Part shown: piece by piece, positions 1 to 54,532 of the stretch | Position numbering within the stretch: the stretch's first letter is position 1 | How the letters are laid out: each line of letters starts with the position of its first letter | From: Geoalkalibacter halelectricus | Lineage (GTDB): Bacteria; Desulfobacterota; Desulfuromonadia; Desulfuromonadales; Geoalkalibacteraceae | Direction: 5' to 3' | Assembly (NCBI RefSeq): GCF_025263685.1 | Contig: NZ_CP092109.1 | Span: forward strand, 868,001 to 932,000 | Length of the DNA: 64,000 nucleotides | The notes under the pieces: generated by a model | What the model was told of the DNA's origin: nothing | Database searches by the model: none | Seen by the model: the letters and a program-made list of their open reading frames with translations, nothing else | Translations under genes and position numbers: made by a program

Positions 1-1546
1 GCATGCAGGCACGGCGGGTGATGATGACGGAAACCTCGGGCCGCTCCATCTCCCGCTTGATGAGGTCGCGGGTCTCGTCGAGGCCGTAGGGGTCGATGGA
101 ATAGACGTGCTTGACGCCCACCGAGCGGCACAAACCTTCGAGATCCACCTGATAGCTGGGGTCACCCTTGAGGCTGTAACCGGTGCCGGGATGGTCCTGG
201 CGGCCGGTCATGCCTGTGGTGCTGTTGTCGAGAATGATCACCGTGGCGGTGGAGCCGTTGTAGACCATGTCGATCAGGCCGTTGATGCCGGTGTGCAGGA
301 AGGTCGAATCGCCGATGACCGCCACCACCTTCTTGCGGTCCTCGGGCGTGAGCACCTTGCTGATGCCGGTGGCGTTGCCGATGCTCGCACCCATGCACAC
401 GCAGGTATCCATGGCCGAAAGCGGCGGCATGAAGCCCAGGGTGTAACAGCCGATGTCGCCGGTGACATAGGCCTTGAGGCGGTTGAGCTGATAGAACACG
501 CCGCGATGCGGGCAACCAGGACACATGTTGGGCGGACGCTGCGGCAGGGTCTCCGTGGGAGTGAAACCCTGGGGAATCTCCTCCTTGAACAGGCCGGCGG
601 CCACGCGGCCGGGGCTCAGCTCGCCGCAGACCGACAACAAGTCCTTGCCATGCACCTCGATGCCCATGGCACGCACCTGCTCCTCGATGAAGGGGTCGAG
701 TTCCTCGATGACGTAGAGCGTCTTGCAGCGTGCGGCAAACTCGCGAATCAACTGCTTGGGCAGCGGATGCACCAGGCCGAGTTTAAGCACATGGGCCTCG
801 GGCAGCACTTCCTTGGCGTATTGATAGGCCACGCCGGCGGTGATGACGCCCACCTCGCCCTGGCCTTCCTCGATGCGGTTGAAGGACTGGGAACAGGACC
901 ACTCGGCCATTTTCGCCAGGCGTTCCTCGACGAAGTAGTGACGCTTGCGGGCATTGCCGGGCAGCATGACCAGCTTGGCCGGATCACGCGCCAGGCTCGG
1001 CTCTGGCAGCCCCTCAACCGGCGTCTGGGGATAAACAATGGATTTGGAGTGCGAAATCCGTGTGGTCGAACGCACCATGACCGGCGTATCGAACTGCTCG
1101 CTCGCCTCGAAAGCCAGGCGGGTGAAGGCGCGCGCCTCCTCGCTGTCGGAGGGCTCGAACATGGGCACCTTGGCAAAACGCGCGTAATGGCGGCTGTCCT
1201 GCTCGTTCTGGGACGAATGCAGCTCCGGATCGTCGGCGACGATCAGCACCAGTCCGCCGCGCACGCCCGTATAGGATAGGGTGAACAGCGGATCGGCCGC
1301 CACGTTGACGCCCACATGCTTCATGGTGCACAGGGCGCGCGCACCGCCGAAGCTGGCGCCGATGGTGACCTCCAGGGAGACCTTTTCGTTGGGCGCCCAG
1401 GACGAGTCGATGCTGGGATAGTGATGGGCGATGTTTTCCAGGATTTCCGTGCTGGGCGTGCCGGGATAAGCCGATGCCACCTTGACGCCCGCTTCGAAGG
1501 CGCCGCGGGCAAAAGCTTCGTTGCCCGAGAGAATGGTCTTGTCCAT
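1..1546 (-). CDS. iorA: Indolepyruvate:ferredoxin oxidoreductase alpha subunit (3' end outside window)
   Basis: Oxidatively decarboxylates aryl pyruvates from aromatic amino acid transamination to aryl-acetyl-CoA, passing electrons to ferredoxin in the cytoplasm. About 515 codons are visible. The N-terminus MDKTILSGNEAFARGAFEAG, the stretch SAYPGTPSTEI and the C-terminal TPP-binding part (GDIGCYTLGF near residue 360, GDSTFLHTGINGL near 410) are typical of IorA. The reading frame is open at the left edge, so the usual C-terminal [4Fe-4S] ferredoxin domain and iorB, if present, lie outside. The start at 1546 is preceded by GGAAAGGAC, a good ribosome binding site. The family assignment is firm; the intactness of the end cannot be judged. 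Confidence 0.93.
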   Translation of the reverse strand, partial: MDKTILSGNEAFARGAFEAGVKVASAYPGTPSTEILENIAHHYPSIDSSWAPNEKVSLEVTIGASFGGARALCTMKHVGVNVAADPLFTLSYTGVRGGLVLIVADDPELHSSQNEQDSRHYARFAKVPMFEPSDSEEARAFTRLAFEASEQFDTPVMVRSTTRISHSKSIVYPQTPVEGLPEPSLARDPAKLVMLPGNARKRHYFVEERLAKMAEWSCSQSFNRIEEGQGEVGVITAGVAYQYAKEVLPEAHVLKLGLVHPLPKQLIREFAARCKTLYVIEELDPFIEEQVRAMGIEVHGKDLLSVCGELSPGRVAAGLFKEEIPQGFTPTETLPQRPPNMCPGCPHRGVFYQLNRLKAYVTGDIGCYTLGFMPPLSAMDTCVCMGASIGNATGISKVLTPEDRKKVVAVIGDSTFLHTGINGLIDMVYNGSTATVIILDNSTTGMTGRQDHPGTGYSLKGDPSYQVDLEGLCRSVGVKHVYSIDPYGLDETRDLIKREMERPEVSVIITRRACM

Positions 1547-1662
1547 GGATGTCCTTTCCAGATTTATTTCGCAGTGATCGTTTATACAGGGGAAATTGCG
1601 GAACAGGGAATATAGATCAAGCCGTGGGGAGATGTCAATTTCATTCAGGATTATCAGGAGTT

Positions 1663-1689
1663 GGCGCCCGCTCCCGAAGAGCGGGCGCC
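1663..1689 (-). terminator. Hairpin downstream of the Na/Pi transporter gene
   Basis: Perfect 11-bp inverted repeat (GGCGCCCGCTC / GAGCGGGCGCC) with a 5-nt loop, 8 bases after the transporter stop codon on the minus strand. The U-tract that should follow is weak, so it may act as an mRNA 3' stabiliser as much as an intrinsic terminator. Confidence 0.6.
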
Positions 1690-1696
1690 ATACCGT

Positions 1697-3397
1697 TTAT
1701 TTGCGTCCGACCAAGGCCTTGGTGACGTTGAAGGTGTGGTCGCCGATCTTTTCAAAGCTGTGCAGCATATCGATAAAGACCAGCCCAGGGAGAACGGCGC
1801 ATTCTCCGGTATTCAGGCGAGCGATGTGGCCGTTGCGATAAAGCTCCTCGGCCTTGTTGATCGCCTTCTCGAAGAACTCGGCCTTTTCCATCACCGAGGT
1901 GTCGCCGCGCTCGACGGCTGAGATGATAAACGCAAGAAATTCGCGGGTTTTCTGGGCTATATCAGCGATTTCCTGGTCCGCGATATCGGAGAAGACAATC
2001 TTCTGGTCCTGTTTGCGCAAGCCCAGCAGCCAGATCTTTTCGCAGTAATCGCCGATCCGCTCAAGGTCGTTGACCATGTGCATCAGGGAAGCGATTTCCT
2101 TGTGCATCTGGGAGGAAACCGACTGCTGGGACAGGGCCACCAGGAAATTGGTCACCTCCTTCTGCAGCAGGTCGACAATCTCCTCCTTCTTTTCCAAGGT
2201 TTCGATGTGCTTGCGGTCATTGTCGCGCAGAAATTCGGTGGTTTCCTCGACCATTTCCAGACAGATCTGCCCCATGCGCTTGGTTTCGGAGCGCGCCTGC
2301 CCCAGGGCGATGGGCGGTGTGTTGAGAACGCGGGTGTCGATGTATTTGAGGTGAAATTCCTGCAGGGCGTCCTCTCCGCGAATGATGACCGTGGTCAACT
2401 TGGCGAGAATGCCAACCAGGGGCAGGAAAATAAGGGTGTTGATGATATTGAAGAGCGTGTGGGTATTGGCGATATGGCGTGCGATATACGGCTTATCCCC
2501 CTCACGCAACCCTTGGCCGAAAGCATCGGCCTGCGCCTGGGTTTGCAGGACAAAATCCGCGTCTCCGGGCGTGATGGCCGAGATGACTTGGAGAAAGGCG
2601 GGAAAGAGCACCAGCATGTAGGCAACGCCGATGGCGTTGAAGAGAAAATGTGCCAGGGCCGTTCGTCGCGCGGCCAGATTGGTGCCGACGGCGGCGAGAT
2701 TGGCCGTGATGGTGGTGCCGATGTTTTCGCCGAGAATCAAGGCCACACTGGCTTCGAAAGTCAGCAGTCCGCTGCTGGCGAGGGCCAGGGTGATGGCGAT
2801 GACCGCGGTACTGCTCTGCACAATCATGGTCATGATCGCGCCGATCAAAACTCCGAGCAGCAGATTGTCGCCGATGAGGAGAAAGAAGTTGCGGAATTCT
2901 TCGCTGGTACGCAGGGGATCGAACGCCTCGCGCATGATGGTGAGGCCGAAGAACAGCAGGCCAAACCCAAGCAGCGCCTCACCGAAATACGCCCGTTCAC
3001 GCTTCTTGCGGCAGAAAAGCCGCAGAAAAACGCCGATTCCGATGGCGGGCAAGGCATATTTGGTGATGGGAAAGGCAATGATCTGGGCCGTCACCGTGGT
3101 GCCGATGTTGGCGCCCAGCACCACGCCGATGGCCTGGGTGAGATTCATCAGGCCGGCATTGACGAAGCCGACCACCATGACGGTGGTGGCGCTCGAGGAT
3201 TGAATGATGGTGGTGACCCCGATGCCGACCAGGGTGCCCATGAAGCGGTTGTTGGTCAGGGCCGCTAGAATTTTACGCATGCGATCCCCGGCCAGCTTCT
3301 GCAATCCCTCCGACATGATTTTCATGCCGAACAGAAAAAGGCCCAAGCCACCGACTAATTTAAAAATGAAGGTTTGATCGAGAAGAACCGAGAGCAT
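1697..3397 (-). CDS. Na+/phosphate cotransporter family protein with PhoU-like C-terminal domain
   Basis: Predicted inner-membrane sodium-dependent phosphate transporter of the NptA/NPT2 type (566 aa). Residues about 1-310 are hydrophobic and hold the two QSSS-type repeats that mark this family (TTIIQSSSATTVMVVGF near 60-75 and MTMIVQSSTAVIAITLAL near 185-200). Residues about 345-560 form a helical PhoU-like domain, including an LERIGDYCEKI stretch. Length and architecture are normal for the bacterial two-domain form. The gene stands alone between iorA and an unrelated lipoprotein gene, with a hairpin after it. Substrate specificity is taken from the family, not read from the sequence. Confidence 0.92.
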   Translation of the reverse strand: MLSVLLDQTFIFKLVGGLGLFLFGMKIMSEGLQKLAGDRMRKILAALTNNRFMGTLVGIGVTTIIQSSSATTVMVVGFVNAGLMNLTQAIGVVLGANIGTTVTAQIIAFPITKYALPAIGIGVFLRLFCRKKRERAYFGEALLGFGLLFFGLTIMREAFDPLRTSEEFRNFFLLIGDNLLLGVLIGAIMTMIVQSSTAVIAITLALASSGLLTFEASVALILGENIGTTITANLAAVGTNLAARRTALAHFLFNAIGVAYMLVLFPAFLQVISAITPGDADFVLQTQAQADAFGQGLREGDKPYIARHIANTHTLFNIINTLIFLPLVGILAKLTTVIIRGEDALQEFHLKYIDTRVLNTPPIALGQARSETKRMGQICLEMVEETTEFLRDNDRKHIETLEKKEEIVDLLQKEVTNFLVALSQQSVSSQMHKEIASLMHMVNDLERIGDYCEKIWLLGLRKQDQKIVFSDIADQEIADIAQKTREFLAFIISAVERGDTSVMEKAEFFEKAINKAEELYRNGHIARLNTGECAVLPGLVFIDMLHSFEKIGDHTFNVTKALVGRK

Positions 3398-9812: not shown

Positions 9813-10379
9813 CTACTGCGACACGTTCGGCGCCGGGGAAACGACCCACAAAATTTCGGTCTGTCCCGAGAACAGGTTGTCCCAGCGATGAGGAAGAGAG
9901 GCCTTGAACACGATGGAATCGCCTTCCTCCAGCACATAGCTTTCACCGTCGATGACAAAACGCATTTTGCCCTTGAGTATATAGGCGAATTCTTCGCCGT
10001 TGTGCACCATGCCCCCTTCCCCGCTGCTGCAACCTTCTTCGAGGGTGTCGCAGAATACGCTGAAGCCCGGATCGCGGATGCCGTGGGTGAGGCTGGTGAT
10101 CTGATGCTTGTCCTCGAAGAAAAAGATCGGCTCTCCCTTGCGCTGGACGGTGGGAACGACCATGGTCCCTTTTTCGGCTTCCTCGACGAAGAAGCTGATG
10201 CTCATCCCGAAGGCATCGGCAAGCTTCATAAGAATCTCCACCGAGGGGATGGTCAAACCACGTTCGATGCGAGAAATCATGTTTGAGGATACACGAGATT
10301 TCTGCGCGAGTTCCTGAATAGTCAAATCATTGCGCAGGCGGGTCGCTTTCAGTTTCTTGCCGATAAGTTGCTTCACCAT
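9813..10379 (-). CDS. XRE family regulator with C-terminal cupin domain (paralogue)
   Basis: A 188-aa regulator like its neighbour at 9161-9727: HTH at about 10-65 (TIQELAQKSRVSSNMISRIE) and cupin at about 110-180 (HNGEEFAYILKGKMRFVIDG, LPHRWDNL). The start at 10379 (MVKQLIGKKLKATRLRNDLT) aligns with the paralogue; an upstream in-frame extension would add a spurious hydrophobic stretch. The cupin histidines differ in spacing from the sister protein, so the ligands may differ. It is divergent from bioB, whose promoter region begins about 110 bases away. Confidence 0.88.
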   Translation of the reverse strand: MVKQLIGKKLKATRLRNDLTIQELAQKSRVSSNMISRIERGLTIPSVEILMKLADAFGMSISFFVEEAEKGTMVVPTVQRKGEPIFFFEDKHQITSLTHGIRDPGFSVFCDTLEEGCSSGEGGMVHNGEEFAYILKGKMRFVIDGESYVLEEGDSIVFKASLPHRWDNLFSGQTEILWVVSPAPNVSQ

Positions 10380-10492
10380 GATGAGAAAACTCCATAGAAA
10401 TTTATAAAATGATGTTCTATCACTGTCGGGAGCGCCTGTCAATACCGATATGAGATAGCCAAACCACAAATAGTAGAAATTGGCCCAAGCCA

Positions 10493-10526
10493 ATCGTTAA
10501 CCCACTCGGCCTCCGGGGTTGACAAT
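10493..10526 (+). promoter_or_regulatory. Candidate BirA operator of the biotin operon
   Basis: Inverted repeat ATCGTTAACC - 14 nt - GGTTGACAAT, with two mismatches between the 10-bp arms. This arm sequence and spacing match the type of site bound by the bifunctional biotin ligase/repressor BirA. The right arm overlaps the -35 hexamer of the bioB promoter, as expected for repression by biotinyl-AMP-bound BirA. No birA gene is in the window. Confidence 0.7.
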
Positions 10527-10546
10527 GACCGGGGCTTCCCTATAAT
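10519..10546 (+). promoter_or_regulatory. Sigma-70 promoter of bioBDA
   Basis: Consensus TTGACA (10519-10524) and TATAAT (10541-10546) separated by 16 bp, about 45 bases before the bioB start codon. This is the best sigma-70 promoter in the window. Confidence 0.85.
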
Positions 10547-10590
10547 CACTTGCCTAACGACCAACCACGCTAAACAAGGGAGCAGCAGCG

Positions 10591-11565
10591 ATGAACAACC
10601 CTTTACTGGAAAAGGTAACGGCCGGCCGGCCCCTGAGCGAGACGGAAGCCCTGACCATTCTGCAAGCACGTGGCGCCGCACTCACGAGCATTCTCGCCGG
10701 CGCCCATTATCTGCGGGAACAAGCCTTCGGCAACCGGATCGAACTCTGCTCCATCATCAACGCCAAGTCGGGGCGGTGCGCCGAGAATTGCAGCTTTTGT
10801 GCCCAGTCAGCCCACCATCGCACGACGGCTCCCGTCTACCCCCTCAAGAGCGAGGACGAACTGGTGGCCGGCGCCCTTGCGGCGGCCGCCGCCAGCTCCC
10901 ACTGTTACGGTATCGTCACCAGCGGCACGACCATCCGTCCCGGTCCCGAGTTGGATAGGATCCTGGCGGCTCTCCGCCGCATTCGCCAAGAAACGCCCAT
11001 CGAGCCTTCGGCGTCCCTGGGCTTGCTGGACGAACCCACAGCTCAAGCCCTTGCCGCGGCCGGATGCGTGACTTATCACCACAACCTGGAGACCGCCCGT
11101 TCTTTTTTTCCCCAGGTCTGCACCACCCATGATTATGAACAAGACGTGGAAACCGTGCGTGTGGCCAAGCGCGCGGGCATGAAGGTCTGCTGCGGCGGCA
11201 TCTTCGGCCTGGGAGAAAGTCTTGAGCAGCGCGTCGAACTGGCCATGACTCTGCGTGACCTGGCGGTGGATTCCGTGCCGCTGAATTTTCTCAATCCCGT
11301 GGCTGGAACCCCCCTGGAGGGCTCCAAACTCCTCACTCCACTGGACTGCGTGCGCATCATCGCCCTGTTCCGCTACCTGCTTCCCACCACCCGCATCGCC
11401 GTGTGCGGGGGCCGCGAACACAATCTGCGCGAATTCCAGTCGTGGATATTCATGGCCGGGGCCAGCGGCACCATGGTGGGCAATTATCTCACCACCACCG
11501 GGCGCAATGCCGAAACGGATTTACAGATGTTCGACGACGCGGAGGTACAAGTCCATGCCTGCTGA
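10591..11565 (+). CDS. bioB: Biotin synthase
   Basis: Radical SAM enzyme that inserts sulfur into dethiobiotin, the last step of biotin synthesis. The 324-aa protein has the cluster-binding motif CAENCSFC (about residues 62-69), the NHNLET-like substrate stretch (HHNLETARSFF) and the GGIFGLGES motif. GGGAGCAGCAG precedes the ATG. It is first in a bioB-bioD-bioA operon; bioD starts inside its last codons. Length and motifs are normal. Expression is probably controlled by BirA through the operator at 10493-10526. Confidence 0.97.
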   Translation: MNNPLLEKVTAGRPLSETEALTILQARGAALTSILAGAHYLREQAFGNRIELCSIINAKSGRCAENCSFCAQSAHHRTTAPVYPLKSEDELVAGALAAAAASSHCYGIVTSGTTIRPGPELDRILAALRRIRQETPIEPSASLGLLDEPTAQALAAAGCVTYHHNLETARSFFPQVCTTHDYEQDVETVRVAKRAGMKVCCGGIFGLGESLEQRVELAMTLRDLAVDSVPLNFLNPVAGTPLEGSKLLTPLDCVRIIALFRYLLPTTRIAVCGGREHNLREFQSWIFMAGASGTMVGNYLTTTGRNAETDLQMFDDAEVQVHAC

Positions 11566-48811: not shown

Positions 48812-49312
48812 ATGACCAACGTCATTCGAACTCTCACTCTTCTTCTGGTCCTCTTTATGCTCGGCACCCCTTCCCTCGCCGCCGACCAGAGTGAATTCGA
48901 GCGCATCCGCGATCTCGGCATGAGCGACCTCACCGAGGAAGCCTTTGAAGTGCTCGAAAAGAAATATCCCAACGAAAACTGGGATGCTTACCGATTTCCG
49001 CGCTACGTGTTCACCAACGACAGCGTCGAGGCGGGCTACATGATCGCCGTCAAGGAGCCCGACCTGCTCAGGCAATTCAAGTGTTACTGCTTCTGCGACG
49101 CCATGGACCACGAGCATTTGCTCCACTGCTTCGTCAAGGACAGCGAGCGGCGCAGAATCCAGTTCGATCCCCATGGCGCAGGCTGCAATATCTGCTACGG
49201 CCAGGCCATGATGGCGCTGCTCTGGCAAGAGAAGGGATTTACCCAGGAACAGATGCAGACGGGCTTCGAAAAGCGCTTCGAGCGGCTTATCGAGCAGTTT
49301 GGAAGTAATTGA
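48812..49312 (+). CDS. PCYCGC-like exported protein
   Basis: A 166-aa protein with a signal peptide (IRTLTLLLVLFMLGTPSLAA). Its Cys-rich core (QFKCYCFCDAMDHEHLLHCF near 90-110, HGAGCNICYGQAMMALLWQE near 125-145) resembles the PCYCGC-motif family of exported proteins, which may bind metal. It follows cytochrome b by 22 bases, suggesting a role with the bc complex or metal handling in the periplasm; that is inference. Confidence 0.75.
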   Translation: MTNVIRTLTLLLVLFMLGTPSLAADQSEFERIRDLGMSDLTEEAFEVLEKKYPNENWDAYRFPRYVFTNDSVEAGYMIAVKEPDLLRQFKCYCFCDAMDHEHLLHCFVKDSERRRIQFDPHGAGCNICYGQAMMALLWQEKGFTQEQMQTGFEKRFERLIEQFGSN

Positions 49313-49330
49313 AAAGGAAATTGAAGCCCC

Positions 49331-49846
49331 TCACTCTCCCTCGGGCTCTACGCCGAAGGCTCGATTGAAGCGGGCGCTGAAGTTTTCCAGGGCGATGGCT
49401 GCGGTCAACTCGACCATCTGGTCGGGCGAAAGACGCTCGGCCAGTCGGCCGAACAGGTCATCGGGCACCTGCGCCGGGGTTTGGGTCATGGCATCGGCGT
49501 AGGCAAGCACATCCTTTTCAAGATCGGTGAAACGATCGCTTCGCGGATAATCCCCGAGATCCGCCAACTCCTCCTTGCTGATTCCCGCCTCACGGGCGAG
49601 ACGATCGGTCAGATCCACTCAAAAAGCGCACTCGATGACCCGCGCGGTGCGATACATGGCCAGGCGTTTCAGGCGCTCCGGAAACTCTCCTTGGCGCCGC
49701 ACCGCCCGACCCAGGGCTAGAAACGTTGCTAGAATGTTCGGCCGCCGGCCGTAAATGCGCAGCGGCGCCGGCACCTTACCCAGCACCCGAAACAGCAAGC
49801 GCACCGCTAACGGCCCTTGATCCCCTGAAACGCCTGGAATACGCAT
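49331..49846 (-). CDS. Carboxymuconolactone decarboxylase/AhpD-like selenoprotein (in-frame TGA)
   Basis: A 171-residue protein if TGA at 49619-49621 is read as selenocysteine (residue 76). The frame is open on both sides with continuous family similarity: RIYGRRPNILATFLALGRA, then ERLKRLAMYRTARVIECAF, TGA, VDLTDRLAREAGISKEELAD, and later VPDDLFGRLAERLSPDQMVE and LENFSARFNRAFG. The TGA falls where the second redox Cys of the C-x-x-C motif should be, giving C-A-F-U. A SECIS-like hairpin follows (49583-49601). Start at 49846 has GAGG upstream. A standard annotation would split it into two genes. The reductase/peroxidase-type role is from the AhpD family. Confidence 0.85.
49583..49601 (-). promoter_or_regulatory. 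SECIS-like hairpin of the selenoprotein gene
   Basis: Seven-pair stem TCTCGCC / GGCGGGA (one G-U pair) with loop CGTGA, on the mRNA 17 nt after the TGA. A guanosine is the second loop base, 26 nt downstream of TGA. This fits the rule for bacterial SECIS elements (short loop with early G, 16-37 nt from the codon). Confidence 0.75.
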
Positions 49847-49965
49847 GAGGCACCTCAATTCTCATCCTGATTATCACCAATCTTTCCTAACAGCCAAGTC
49901 CCCCTTTAGCAAAGGGGGGGAATGACTTGCGGCACACTCACCTGTGCTCAACCCAATTGGTCTGG

Positions 49966-52227
49966 CTAAAGCGCAGTTCGCCGCAACAAAATGGAATTGC
50001 CGATAACGGTCAGGGAACTGAATGTCATGGCGATGACGCCGATCATGGGATGCAGCAGTCCCAGAGCCGCTATGGGGATGGCAAGTACGTTGTAGAAAAA
50101 GGCCCAGAAAAGGTTCTGCACAATCTTGCGAAACGTCTGGCGCGACAGCTTCACCGCTTCCACGACTTTGGTAAGTTCGCCACGGACCAAGGTCACATCG
50201 GCCGCTTCAATGGCGACATCCGCTCCGGCGCCGATGGCGATCCCGATGTTGGCCTGCTTCAGCGCCGGCGCGTCGTTGATGCCGTCTCCCACCATGGCAA
50301 CAACCTCGCCGTGTTCTCTTTGTAAGCGGCGCACGGCATCGACCTTGCCTTCCGGGAGAATATCGGCCATGACCTCCTCAATGCCCACCTGGGTCGCGAC
50401 CGCCTGAGCGGTGCGTTCGTTGTCGCCGGTTATCATCAGCGGGCGAATCTGCAATTTCTTGAGTTCTTCAACGGCGCTGCGGGAATCGGGCTTGAGGGTA
50501 TCGGCCACGGCCACCAGGCCCGCGGGGCGACCGTCGACAGCCACCAACATCACCGTCTTTCCCTCCTCCTCCAGCCTTGCCTTTTCTTTTTTCAAGCCAT
50601 TGATGGAGATTCCGTTTTCTTCGAACATTCTTTGGTTGCCGACCTGGACATCCTTTCCGTCCACCCGGCCCTGTACTCCTTGAGCCGTCTTGGACTCAAA
50701 GTTTTCGACCTTCGCAAGCGACAGATCCTTGTCGCGCGCCCCCTGCACGATCGCCTGCCCGAGGGGATGCTCTGAACCTGTCTCGACGGCCGCGGCAAAA
50801 GCCAGCACCTCATCTTTGTCAAACCCTTCCATCGACACGACATCGGTCAGGGACGGCTCTCCTTTGGTGATGGTTCCGGTCTTGTCCAGAACAATGAAAC
50901 GAATATCCTTGAATTGCTGAATCGCTTCCCCGGCGCGAATCAATACGCCCCTCTCGGCACCGACTCCTGAACCGACCATCAGGGCCGTCGGCGTGGCCAA
51001 GCCCAGCGCGCAGGGACAGGCGATTACCAGGACGGCGATGGCCGAAAGAATCCCCAGCATCAAGGGCGAGAGTTCAGGATTGACCCAGGGCAGAAAACCT
51101 GCCCCCCAGATCAAGACGGGACGAAGATGCTCGGCGAAAACAAACCAGGCAAGAAAACTCAGTGCCGCAATCCCGATGACCGCCGGAACAAACCTGCTGG
51201 TAATGCGATCGGCAAATTCCTGAATCGGCACCTTGGAACTCTGGGCCTCTTCAACGAGGCGAATCATTTGCGAAAGGAAGGTTTCCTCACCGATCTTGGT
51301 GGCTCGGACCATCAACAATCCCTGCTTGTTGATGGTCGCTCCGATGACCTCGTCACCCGGATTTTTCTCCACCGGCACGGATTCACCCGTGGCAATGGAC
51401 TCATCGACGTGGCTGCTCCCTTCGACGATTTCTCCGTCGGTGGGTATCTTTTCTCCGGGGCGAACGATCATCAGATCACCTTGCTTGAGTGAATTGATCG
51501 CCACCTCGGTCTCCTGACCGTCCCGCTCGACGCGGGCGGTCTTGGCGCCCAAAGTAAGAAGCTTGCGAATGGCCTGGGATGCTCGCCCTTTGGCGCGCGT
51601 TTCGAGATAGCGCCCCAGCAGATGAAAAGTCATGATGGTTGCGGCCATTTCGATAAAGGATGTCATGGGATAGATAAAACCGAACAGCCCGATGACATAG
51701 GGAGGCAGGCTCCCCATGGAGATGAGCACATCCATATTGGCCGTGCGGTTGGTGAGGGCCCGCCAGGAAGAGCGGTGGGTGGCGGCTCCGCCGGCAAGAA
51801 AGACGACGGGGAAAGCCAATGCGGCGACAATGGCGAGGTATCCCGGAATGGGCCGCCAGAACATGTGCGCCATCATCAAAATCATGATCGCCGTAGCGGG
51901 GATTGCGGCTATCCAAAGCCGCCGCCACGCCTGTTGCAGGTAGCGCTCTTCAATTTCAGCCTCATCGGCACCCGGGCCGCCCTTCTCCTCCAGGGCCGCC
52001 ACCTCATAGCCCGCCTTTTCCACGGCTTGGCGTAGCTCATCCGCCCCAACGTTTTGCTCGTCAAAACGAACTCTGACGCGGTGATTGCTGATATTGGTAT
52101 TAAGAACCTCGACTCCCTCCAAGCGTCCCAGTGAGGTTCGAATGATTCCTGCACAGTGATCAGACCCCATTCCGGGGACAGTTAAAACGGCCTCCTGCTT
52201 CTCGGAATTTGTTTCGCCTTGAGCCAA
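49966..52227 (-). CDS. copA: Copper-transporting P1B-type ATPase
   Basis: A 753-aa inner-membrane Cu+ export ATPase. N-terminal metal-binding domain (about 13-75) with a degenerate motif GMGSDHC (first Cys replaced by Ser), then TM helices, TGES phosphatase motif ([11 protein letters not shown]), the CPC motif [13 protein letters not shown], phosphorylation [20 protein letters not shown] and [10 protein letters not shown]. The C-terminal helices show [14 protein letters not shown] and [12 protein letters not shown], which define Cu+ specificity (YN and MxxSS). It is single, with no adjacent copZ. Confidence 0.95.
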
Positions 52228-52373: not shown

Positions 52374-52604
52374 TCAAGGGATCTCCTCCCCCTTTTCGAT
52401 ACGCAGCCGGTAAAAACCTTCTTCTTCCTTAAGTTCCAACAACCTGTGCCCCTCGGCCTTGAGGCTGCGGGGCACATTTTTTACCGGCTCGCCGTCATCC
52501 AGAAGAAATTCGACCACCTCGCCGGGGTCAAGCAATTCCAGGGCGAGTTTGGCTTTGACGAAATTGGTCGGGCAGCTGAGGCCGCGCAGATCGATGACGG
52601 ACAT
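52374..52604 (-). CDS. TusA-family sulfur carrier protein
   Basis: A 76-aa protein of the SirA/TusA/YedF fold: VIDLRGLSCPTNFVKAKLAL contains the CPxx motif with the persulfide-bearing cysteine, and LDPGEVVEFLLDDGEPVKNV the second strand-helix. It lies 9 bases downstream of the siroheme sulfite reductase-like gene, which suggests delivery of sulfane sulfur or interaction with that enzyme. The physiological partner is not proved. Confidence 0.88.
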   Translation of the reverse strand: MSVIDLRGLSCPTNFVKAKLALELLDPGEVVEFLLDDGEPVKNVPRSLKAEGHRLLELKEEEGFYRLRIEKGEEIP

Positions 52605-52613
52605 AGGGAAACC

Positions 52614-53564
52614 TCATTGTTTTCCAATCTGGGTGTCGATAACCTGCGGAGGGATGGTCGACTCCACGACGGACTCGGGAAAATCCTTGCGCAGATGCGC
52701 CAGCAGGGAACCCACGCCGGCCCTGTGGATCACATCGCCGATGCGGATACGCCCCATTCCTAGCGCCTGCTCTCGATACCAGTCCAGCACCGCGGCAATG
52801 AAGTCGACCACCTGCTCCTCGGGCAGAAAAACGGCGAACAGGGTACCGACCAGGGGTTTGCGTCCCCATTTGCCGCCCACGCGCACGGTGTAGCCTTTTT
52901 TCTCCACCTGCCAGGCTTCGCTGGGGCACACCTTGACGCAGTCTCCGCAATAGGTACATCGCTCGGAAATGAAACTAAGCGTGTCGTCCGGATTTTTTTC
53001 AATGGCCTTCTCGGTGCAGGATTTCACGCACAGCCCGCAATGAATGCACAAATCCTGGCGCAACCGCGGCCAGATCGCTCCCTGAAAGCCGACATCGTTG
53101 ATGGCCGATTTGGGACAATCGAAGGGACAACCGGCGAATCCGACCTTGAATTTGTGATGGCCGGTCTCGCTGCCGAAGAGCTTGCGGTCGACCTCCAGGG
53201 CCGAGGCCTGGGTATCGACCAGGCCGTGGGGATTGTATTCGCACCCTCCGCAGGCGGTCGGAACGCGCATGCGCGCCCCGCATGAGGCGACCTGCTGCTC
53301 CGCTTCGCCGAGAGCCGCGACCACCGCATCGAAATCCTTGAAGTTTACATGGATCAACTCGATGGATTGACGCACCGAAAGATGGACGAAATCGCCGCCG
53401 TAGCGCTCGGCGACCTCGGCGATTTTTTTCAGGCGGACGATGGGCAAGCGGCCGCCGGGCACCCGTAGACGCACGGTGAACAGATCCTTGCCGCGCTCCT
53501 TGATGAAGCCGCCGGCCTTGAGGTTCTTTAAATCCATGGCGGTTTTCACGGTTTTTTTGGACAT
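52614..53564 (-). CDS. Sulfite/nitrite reductase-like siroheme protein with ferredoxin domain
   Basis: A 316-aa protein. Residues about 30-90 match the ferredoxin-like half of sulfite reductases (FTVRLRVPGGRLPIVRLKKI, HLSVRQSIELIHVNFKDFDA). The siroheme-[4Fe-4S] site is ACGGCEYNPHGLVDT followed by GFAGCPFDCPKSAINDVGF (about 115-165). Two [4Fe-4S] ferredoxin motifs follow (CIHCGLCVKSCTEKA, CTYCGDCVKVCPSEA, about 175-225). This is the AsrC/Fsr-like architecture, likely reducing sulfite to sulfide. Start chosen at 53564 (MSKKTVKTAMDLK); ribosome site is weak. Confidence 0.85.
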   Translation of the reverse strand: MSKKTVKTAMDLKNLKAGGFIKERGKDLFTVRLRVPGGRLPIVRLKKIAEVAERYGGDFVHLSVRQSIELIHVNFKDFDAVVAALGEAEQQVASCGARMRVPTACGGCEYNPHGLVDTQASALEVDRKLFGSETGHHKFKVGFAGCPFDCPKSAINDVGFQGAIWPRLRQDLCIHCGLCVKSCTEKAIEKNPDDTLSFISERCTYCGDCVKVCPSEAWQVEKKGYTVRVGGKWGRKPLVGTLFAVFLPEEQVVDFIAAVLDWYREQALGMGRIRIGDVIHRAGVGSLLAHLRKDFPESVVESTIPPQVIDTQIGKQ

Positions 53565-53604
53565 AAGGTGCGAGTACCCCCGACAAATCGATGTGCGTAT
53601 CTCT

Positions 53605-54417
53605 TCATTTCTGATGAATGTTGCAGATGTTTGCTGCTTCATCCTCGTCACGCAGTTCGGTAATGGTCGGCGCCTCGCCGCACAAGGGGCAGTTGGGATT
53701 GCGCTTGAGATTGACTTCGCGAAACTGCATGTCCAGGGCGTCATACATCAGCAGACGGTTTTTTAGCAGCTCGCCCTTCCCGAGAAGAAATTTGACCGCC
53801 TCGGTGGCCTGCAAGGTGCCGATCACCCCAGGCAGCACGCCGATGACTCCCGCTTGCGAGCAAGTTGGAATAGCGTCGCGCGGCGGCGGCTTGGGAAAGA
53901 TGCAGCGGTAACAGGTGGACTCGTATGGCACCACGGTGATGGTCTGTCCGAAAAAGCCCAGAATGCCGGCGTGGGAATAACTTTTGCCTTCCATGACGCA
54001 GGCATCGTTGATAAGAAACTTGGCAGCAAAATTGTCCGTGCCGTCGATGATGAAATCGTAATCCCGGATCATTGCACGGATATTATCGGCATTCACCCAG
54101 CCCTGATGAGTGACGACCCGCACATCAGAGTTGACGGCCTCCATCTTCTCCTTGGCGGATTGAACCTTCGGTCGACCAATGTCGGAAGTGAAATGAATCA
54201 CCTGGCGCTGCAAGTTGGACAATTCGACGTCATCAGCATCGGCAACTCCGAGGGTGCCCACTCCGGCCGCGGTGAGATACAAGGCGGCAGGAGAACCCAA
54301 GGCGCCCGCACCGATGATCAGGACCCGCCCGTCGAGCAGCTTTTTTTGGCCCTTGCCGCCGACCTCCTTAAGGATGATATGGCGCGAGTAGCGCTCGATC
54401 TGCTCTTCCGTGAACAC
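53605..54417 (-). CDS. ThiF/MoeB/HesA-family adenylyltransferase
   Basis: A 270-aa E1-like enzyme that adenylates the C-terminus of a small sulfur carrier. It has the ATP-binding VLIIGAGALGSPAALYLTAA (about residues 32-51), the catalytic Arg stretch LSNLQRQVIHFTSDIGRPKV, IIDGTDNFAAKFLIND, the Cys in STCYRCIFP and a C-terminal zinc motif CPLCGE. The start is a GTG at 54417 with GGAGG 9 bases upstream, giving the normal MoeB length; an upstream ATG would add an unrelated tail. It leads the sulfite-reductase/TusA cluster, so a sulfur-transfer role is likely. Confidence 0.88.
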   Translation of the reverse strand: MFTEEQIERYSRHIILKEVGGKGQKKLLDGRVLIIGAGALGSPAALYLTAAGVGTLGVADADDVELSNLQRQVIHFTSDIGRPKVQSAKEKMEAVNSDVRVVTHQGWVNADNIRAMIRDYDFIIDGTDNFAAKFLINDACVMEGKSYSHAGILGFFGQTITVVPYESTCYRCIFPKPPPRDAIPTCSQAGVIGVLPGVIGTLQATEAVKFLLGKGELLKNRLLMYDALDMQFREVNLKRNPNCPLCGEAPTITELRDEDEAANICNIHQK

Positions 54418-54451
54418 CCTCGTAAACCTCCAGAACCGAAAATAGGGGTTT

Positions 54452-54532
54452 TTAGGCGATGACCTCGAAGCGTTCACACACCACGCCGAAAAGGTTTTCC
54501 TCCCGCCAAAACAGCCTTACCCCAGCAACCAA
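54452..54532 (-). other. Possible 26-residue leader ORF upstream of the ThiF-like gene
   Basis: An in-frame stretch beginning with TTG (or a nearby codon) encodes about 26 residues ending GVRLFWREENLFGVVCERFEVIA, stopping 34 bases before the GTG start of the ThiF-like gene. No clear ribosome site. It could be a real small protein, a translational leader, or chance. Confidence 0.25.

Follow-up and report, generated by a model that had tools for sequence, protein, structure and literature searches.

A predicted selenoprotein gene of the carboxymuconolactone decarboxylase superfamily, with an in-frame UGA at codon 76, in Geoalkalibacter halelectricus

The minus-strand segment 49331-49846 of the window (the whole 64,000-nucleotide stretch of Geoalkalibacter halelectricus DNA that was analysed) is very probably a genuine selenoprotein gene, in which the UGA at codon 76 would be decoded as selenocysteine (Sec) to produce a Cys/Sec redox protein of the carboxymuconolactone decarboxylase (CMD) superfamily. 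In the mechanism that we propose, SelB and tRNA-Sec would decode this codon under the direction of a stem-loop located 17 nt downstream, whose CGUGA loop would present a G and a U, and a second UGA lacking such a hairpin would terminate the protein. Cys73 and Sec76 would form a C-x-x-U redox pair that most likely cycles via a selenenylsulfide, and the protein may act in the redox chemistry of thiols and peroxides or of sulfur species, possibly in cells exposed to copper or oxidative stress.

The reading frame opens with an ATG at 49846-49844, and the only in-frame stop before its end is the TGA of codon 76 (49619-49621). When this codon is read as Sec the gene is complete and encodes 171 residues, with the redox motif C73-A-F-U76, in which the predicted Sec occupies the last position and its partner Cys73 (codon 49628-49630) is invariant in all seven distinct orthologues described below. 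The sequence GAGGTG at 49851-49856, 4 nt 5' of the ATG, is a likely ribosome-binding site. Under the standard code the same DNA yields two open reading frames, one of 79 aa with a TTG start (49619-49858) and one of 95 aa with a GTG start (49331-49618); an earlier note on this DNA had read two adjacent minus-strand frames, split only by the TGA, as a single CMD protein. Its coordinates proved exact, and the match to the Pfam CMD model PF02627 crosses the TGA (residues 36-118, 39 bits against a gathering cut-off of 23). The two standard-code frames also agree with the note's expectation that ordinary gene callers would report fragments, and since no NCBIfam model listed reaches its own cut-off for the 171-aa protein, gene callers are expected to split the gene. 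The terminal TGA (49331-49333) is taken as the real stop, because the hairpin test applied to codon 76 detects no SECIS-like hairpin 3' of it and because the orthologues end near the same point with TAA, TAG or TGA. Judged by homology, the product would be a small CMD-superfamily oxidoreductase with a helical fold; an AlphaFold2 model of the single 171-aa sequence has a mean pLDDT of 54.7, with residues 1-54 below 50, and it was left out of fold claims and fold searches because of these low values. An Rfam scan of 49300-50000 returned two matches only, both far below their gathering scores. Between copA and the selenoprotein gene, at 49900-49920, lies the inverted repeat CCCCCCCTTTGCTAAAGGGGG, possibly a dispersed repeat or a terminator.

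Searching 136 genomes of the order at the protein level (E <= 1e-10) returned 17 matches in 16 genomes. Eight of the 136 genomes, its own included, carry an orthologue; they represent six genera, and the other orthologues are 56-71% identical to the 171-aa protein. All eight contain exactly one in-frame TGA, at the codon aligned with position 76, and none of them has Cys there. The protein of one orthologue (L028) is identical to that of another (L027) and was left out, leaving seven distinct orthologues for comparison. The other nine matches in the order are 27-37% identical, eight of them without a stop and one (L037) with a TGA at the site. A profile search of 395 genomes of the phylum produced 45 match rows, of which 30 loci (29 besides our own) were read at the sequence level and the remainder were judged by internal stops alone; it contributed four further TGA forms (L045, L046, L047 and L050), all in the same column. 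In the 47 rows read, which include our own and omit L028, column 76 is TGA in 12, a Cys codon in 22 and neither in 13, with a Trp codon in none, and Cys is the commonest codon at the site among the more distant homologues read. The alignment with Cys-containing homologues across the TGA that the earlier note had proposed thus bears it out in the eight orthologues and in the prevalence of Cys farther away, but not in the 13 rows with neither codon. No Cys form of the orthologue was found in the 136 genomes of the order, the 395 genomes of the phylum, the genome contigs or the best 15 of the 155 plasmid matches. The plasmid search covered 72,556 records, 155 of which had a match, all below 60% identity and the best listed at ~37%, and no orthologue is among the best 15 of them. 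The genome-contig search returned five matches, of which only L020 was kept (36% identical, the best kept); L021 and L022 (both on the plus strand), L023 and L024 were dropped as relatives, as they have no C-x-x-C/U site. The gene is dispensable, because the three other genomes of the same genus that were examined all lack the orthologue.

The putative bacterial SECIS element (49583-49601, minus strand) is the hairpin TCTCGCC-CGTGA-GGCGGGA, in which a stem of seven pairs (49601-49595 with 49589-49583) closes the loop CGTGA (49594-49590). It begins 17 nt 3' of the codon 76 TGA, and the spacing from TGA to loop is 24 nt. For bacterial SECIS elements, the available text of PMC13188914 gives a loop of 3-9 nt, a stem of 4-16 bp, a minimum free energy of <= -7.5 kcal/mol, a G in the first two loop positions and a UGA-to-loop distance of 16-37 nt, and the hairpin lies within all of these limits, with a loop of 5, a stem of 7, G as the second loop base, a spacing of 24 and a centroid energy of -10.7 kcal/mol. 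The description of the hairpin in the earlier note was therefore exact, but on its own the structure is weak evidence for a SECIS element, because it is no more stable than shuffled sequences (z = +0.62; equalled or surpassed by 141 of 200 shuffles) and because comparable hairpins, defined by a stem of at least 7 pairs with GT within the first four loop bases, follow 78 of the 1976 TGA triplets (~4%) on both strands of the 64-kb window.

Comparison with relatives makes a convincing case that the hairpin is more than a chance structure, which appears mainly through synonymous constraint and to which covariation adds weakly. The codon test used the seven distinct orthologues, of which L030 and L031 are closely related, and the 69 residues that are the same in all seven and have synonymous codons. 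Within this set, codons 83-88 of the hairpin have a mean pairwise codon identity of 0.88 as compared to 0.48 elsewhere, and five of the six (CTC GCC CGT GAG GCG) are wholly invariant, as against 5 of the 63 other invariant residues; random sets of six codons were as extreme in 15 of 100,000 draws. Codon 82 lies outside the tested set, as only its third base is in the stem (in the outermost pair), and with two codons among the seven orthologues it is not frozen. The RNA-level constraint thus extends across the orthologues, with covariation in one pair only: six of the seven stem pairs never vary, and the outermost pair is U-A in three orthologues, A-U in three and unpaired in L029. Because six of the seven pairs never vary, a pair-shuffle control of this covariation is not significant (66/500). 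Stem pairing amounts to 98% and falls to 45-51% when the partners are slid by 1 to 3 columns. A DNA pattern comprising the TGA and the hairpin, searched with up to three mismatches and thus able to pick up TGC or TGT, matches only the eight orthologue genomes of the 136, each with 0 mismatches, and the reversed-pattern control has 0 matches in the 136 genomes.

The genome encodes the machinery that decoding would require. Its search identified selB (390.8 bits; cut-off 242.25), selA (609.5 bits; cut-off 267.9) and selD (370.1 bits; cut-off 125), as well as a tRNA-Sec gene scoring 75.6 bits (gathering score 47), which ARAGORN likewise calls as tRNA-Sec with the anticodon TCA. The earlier note had proposed a search for selA, selB, selC and selD and held that a lack of selC or selB would refute its reading; all four are in the genome, a single 4.13-Mb contig on which selD, selB and selA stand side by side in the same orientation (C1:692433-696734). 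Together with the TGA in eight of eight orthologues and the constrained hairpin, these genes support the note's claim of a Sec-containing redox protein. Codon 11 of the matched part of selD (G000:C1:692433-693356, minus strand) is likewise an in-frame TGA, and the genome therefore probably holds at least two selenoprotein genes. A TGA form is carried by 13 genomes. G489 is the only one of them that gave no tRNA-Sec hit, and G045, an 81% complete genome, the only one without a selB hit, such that each of the 13 has at least one of the two. Ten non-carrier genomes were tested, and tRNA-Sec is present in all ten and selB in nine. The Sec machinery is necessary, but its presence in the order does not discriminate carriers, because nine to ten of the ten non-carriers also have it.

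Purifying selection persists downstream of the TGA. After this codon dN is smaller than dS in all five of the seven pairs for which dS is computable (0.18 versus 1.05 for L001-L025; 0.014 versus 0.059 for L030-L031), being undefined in the other two, and identity is higher after the TGA than before it in five of the seven pairs (0.76 versus 0.64 for L001-L025) and lower in L025-L027 and L036-L037. These values argue against a pseudogene or sequencing error, in which a nonsense mutation or a miscalled base would have split a CxxC gene. The frame is indeed split under the standard code, and a gene absent from the three other genomes of the genus could be decaying, but the same TGA recurs in eight genomes of six genera and a run of synonymous sites is frozen at the hairpin, making decay or error extremely improbable. 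It is also very improbable that the TGA is read through as Trp by a near-cognate tRNA or recoded in some other non-Sec manner, or that TGA is reassigned genome-wide. Near-cognate tRNAs are known to read through TGA in bacteria; however, the genome has the full Sec machinery, including a tRNA-Sec with a TCA anticodon, the site is a Cys codon in 22 of the 47 rows read and a Trp codon in none of them, and the same gene terminates with TGA. The fit of the hairpin to the bacterial SECIS constraints, as given in the available text of PMC13188914, likewise speaks against such recoding. Alternatively, the gene could deliberately encode two products, a 75-residue N-terminal product and/or a C-terminal protein started at the GTG that directly follows the TGA of codon 76, as a means of regulation by selenium supply. 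Decoding of Sec codons competes with termination, yet the codon after the TGA is GTG, GTC, ATC or ATT in the orthologues, and it therefore tracks Val/Ile and not a start codon; as the CMD domain also spans the TGA, we regard a two-product gene as very improbable.

For a protein with Sec at position 76, the best reading of its active site, based on sequence comparison, would be that of a Cys/Sec thiol-selenol oxidoreductase. The AhpD-type relay, according to the available text of PMC3141380, consists of Glu, Cys, His or Tyr, Cys and His, which in PA0269 are Glu36, Cys48, Tyr50, Cys51 and His55. In the 2ijc alignment their counterparts are Arg61, Cys73, Phe75, Sec76 and Thr80, and three of the five positions thus differ (Glu to Arg61, Tyr to Phe75 and His to Thr80). 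All seven orthologues share Arg61, Cys73, Sec76, Asp78 and Thr80; at position 75, L029 has Tyr and the other six have Phe. The AhpD core domain model TIGR00778 scores 19.4 bits, below its cut-off of 27.8. Because the protein belongs to the superfamily yet lacks the relay that defines AhpD peroxidases, it should probably not be filed as one of them, and the term 'AhpD-like' used in the earlier note would hold for the fold family, not for a function. A true AhpD-type peroxiredoxin reductase or peroxidase, which would be compatible with a selenoprotein, nevertheless has a real, if minority, chance of being the correct function: the best solved relatives are AhpD-like with a CxxC at the same place, and PA0269 is weakly peroxidase-active according to the available text of PMC3141380. 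The exchange of its Glu36, Tyr50 and His55 for Arg61, Phe75 and Thr80 counts against this function, although L029 has Tyr at 75, and no AhpC-like model was matched among the 19 neighbour genes that were family-searched, a result confined to those genes.

If the protein is instead a thiol-selenol oxidoreductase, the loss of the relay may have a chemical explanation. The Glu and His of the relay are replaced by Arg61 and Thr80, and an invariant Asp stands two residues after Sec. Sec is acidic, and its low pKa could make the AhpD proton relay unnecessary. We offer this idea tentatively, because L047, one of the five TGA relatives outside the orthologue group, combines Sec with both relay residues (a His four residues after Sec and a Glu twelve before Cys) and because many Cys relatives lack the relay His, both as read by eye in the 47 rows. 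In its boldest form, the proposal would describe a Sec-only CMD subfamily in which selenium has assumed the role of the AhpD proton relay, leaving Glu and His dispensable, with the enzyme placed in a copper- and sulfur-linked redox pathway on account of the copper-type ATPase and the rhodanese (or its fragments) that each occur near the gene in three lineages; this version is speculative, and we think it rather unlikely.

The kind of protein is already known, and the statement in the earlier note that AhpD-like Cys-x-x-Sec selenoproteins exist is confirmed by the available text of three sources. Selenoproteins with a CMD domain and AhpD-like ones, both with CxxU, were described from the Sargasso Sea in 2005 (PMC1088965), and CMD/AhpD-like CxxU selenoproteins appear in catalogues of 2022 (PMC9312934) and 2026 (PMC13188914). 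The available part of PMC1794560 lists a 'distant AhpD homolog' selenoprotein for two Geobacter species, and that of PMC13188914 assigns the model NF041047 to the GSU3128 family, a distant AhpD homologue of Geobacter that is likewise a CxxU selenoprotein. The NF041047 model gives no match to the 171-aa protein at E up to 0.1. The best-scoring NCBIfam model for this protein and the ten relatives scanned is NF053654 (YciW-related (seleno)protein, GroundWater_YciW), which at 179 positions is of similar length, but with 102.8 bits against a cut-off of 310 the protein is not a member. The AhpD-like and CMD selenoproteins of the COG2128/YciW (TIGR01926) kind share the superfamily and the CxxU site, a likeness drawn from the descriptions of catalogue entries in the available text; the peroxidase-related model TIGR01926 itself scores 27.1 bits, below its cut-off of 81.8. 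Among solved structures, PDB entries 7xw1, 2ijc and 2o4d, of the AhpD or PA0269-type peroxidase-related kind, match in sequence with E ~1e-11. In the two alignments shown, those of 7xw1 and 2ijc, their CxxC falls on C73/U76, in keeping with the earlier claim that the TGA takes the place of the second Cys in CAF-U. The protein differs from this type by Sec in place of the second Cys and, where the published relay residues are concerned, by Arg61, Phe75 and Thr80 in place of Glu, Tyr and His. CMD proteins with CxxC also occur in the same order (L032-L036 and L038); they are 34-37% identical, share the site C-x-F-C-V-D-I-N and have Cys in place of Sec, the related L037 with its TGA being the exception. 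We take this group to be YnjA-like, the sole support for the name being the E. coli ynjA record among the matches to the 171-aa protein. In the available literature on CMD selenoproteins, supplements aside, we met no description of the hairpin and gene context of the subfamily, and the available main text of PMC12013277 does not mention carboxymuconolactone, AhpD or YciW. Within these sources, CxxU CMD/AhpD-like proteins have been in print since 2005 and the subfamily is unnamed by the annotation models tried; the present gene and its orthologues add a well-supported selenoprotein subfamily to those on record.

Several TGA forms lie outside the orthologue group. L037 (G074; locus 1474-1956, minus strand) is a YnjA-like CMD gene with the site C-N-F-U that is nested among Cys sisters; its TGA corresponds to TGT in the sister L036, and it is apparently an independent Cys/Sec exchange. 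The 48 nt directly 3' of its TGA are predicted to fold very stably (-23.3 kcal/mol). L045, L046, L047 and L050 are TGA-containing CMD genes from other families of the phylum, and their best NCBIfam model is NF053654, at 94.6-139.8 bits (cut-off 310). Different candidate hairpins follow the TGA in the relatives that fall outside the orthologue group; those predicted for L045, L046 and L047 consist of seven pairs closing a loop of three bases, GTG or GTC. In L050 (G170; 1501-2019, plus strand) the site reads S-P-Y-U, with Ser for the partner Cys and the TGA kept, which suggests that the partner Cys itself may be lost once Sec is present. A single origin of Sec for the wider group was rejected, as a tree of 34 rows needs five changes and its well-supported branches force at least two, its long branches leaving the deep joins unsure; this tree omitted the 13 of the 47 rows without Cys/Ser-x-x-Cys/Sec columns, L028 having been omitted earlier. 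The order offers a natural set, with L036 versus L037 and the eight Sec-only orthologues, for asking what a CMD-fold redox enzyme gains from selenium and whether a general-base relay can be replaced by it.

Upstream of the selenoprotein gene, on the same strand, a copper/heavy-metal P-type ATPase gene (49969-52227; TIGR01511, 575.8 bits against a cut-off of 397) belongs to its context and is not part of it. The earlier note had placed the selenoprotein gene between a cytochrome bc operon and copA; the copper-type ATPase is as described, but a PCYCGC-family (PF13798) gene with the Cys motif C-Y-C-F-C (48812-49312, plus strand) stands between the cytochrome b gene and the selenoprotein gene. PF13798 is listed with a selenoprotein form in the available text of PMC13188914. 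The region also holds CusA- and CusB-like efflux genes. Seven neighbourhoods were compared, that of our own window and L074-L079, and a copper-type ATPase is nearby in three of them: our own, L075, where it is on the same strand and ends ~55 nt before the selenoprotein gene, and L077, where it is on the same strand at a distance of ~3 kb and Cus-type genes lie to the opposite side. L077 also has a cytochrome c that is 59% identical to the one in our window. A rhodanese occurs in three of the seven, being adjacent and convergent in L075, on the same strand and directly upstream in L076, and present only as fragments in L074. The L074 pieces (about 10340-10640, minus strand) lie upstream in two frames and resemble the intact L076 rhodanese, as a frameshifted or decaying copy would. 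A VTT-domain gene is found downstream in L074 (by family scan) and in L076 (by 61.6% identity to the L074 gene), and in L078 and L079 blastp, the one method applied, matched no open reading frame to the ATPase, the rhodanese or the other compared neighbour genes. Gene context was rejected as a guide to function, as it is not uniform and includes no single constant partner in the seven neighbourhoods; the patchy spread of the gene would suit an accessory stress gene, yet no partner gene is constant. Recent import marked by a jump in base composition was also rejected, the G+C content around the gene being 0.59-0.60, within the 0.52-0.65 of 36000-60000. At 52374-54477 on the minus strand, a TusA-like gene, a gene for a sulfite/nitrite-reductase-like ferredoxin protein and a MoeB/ThiF-like gene stand in a row and may form a sulfur-transfer operon.
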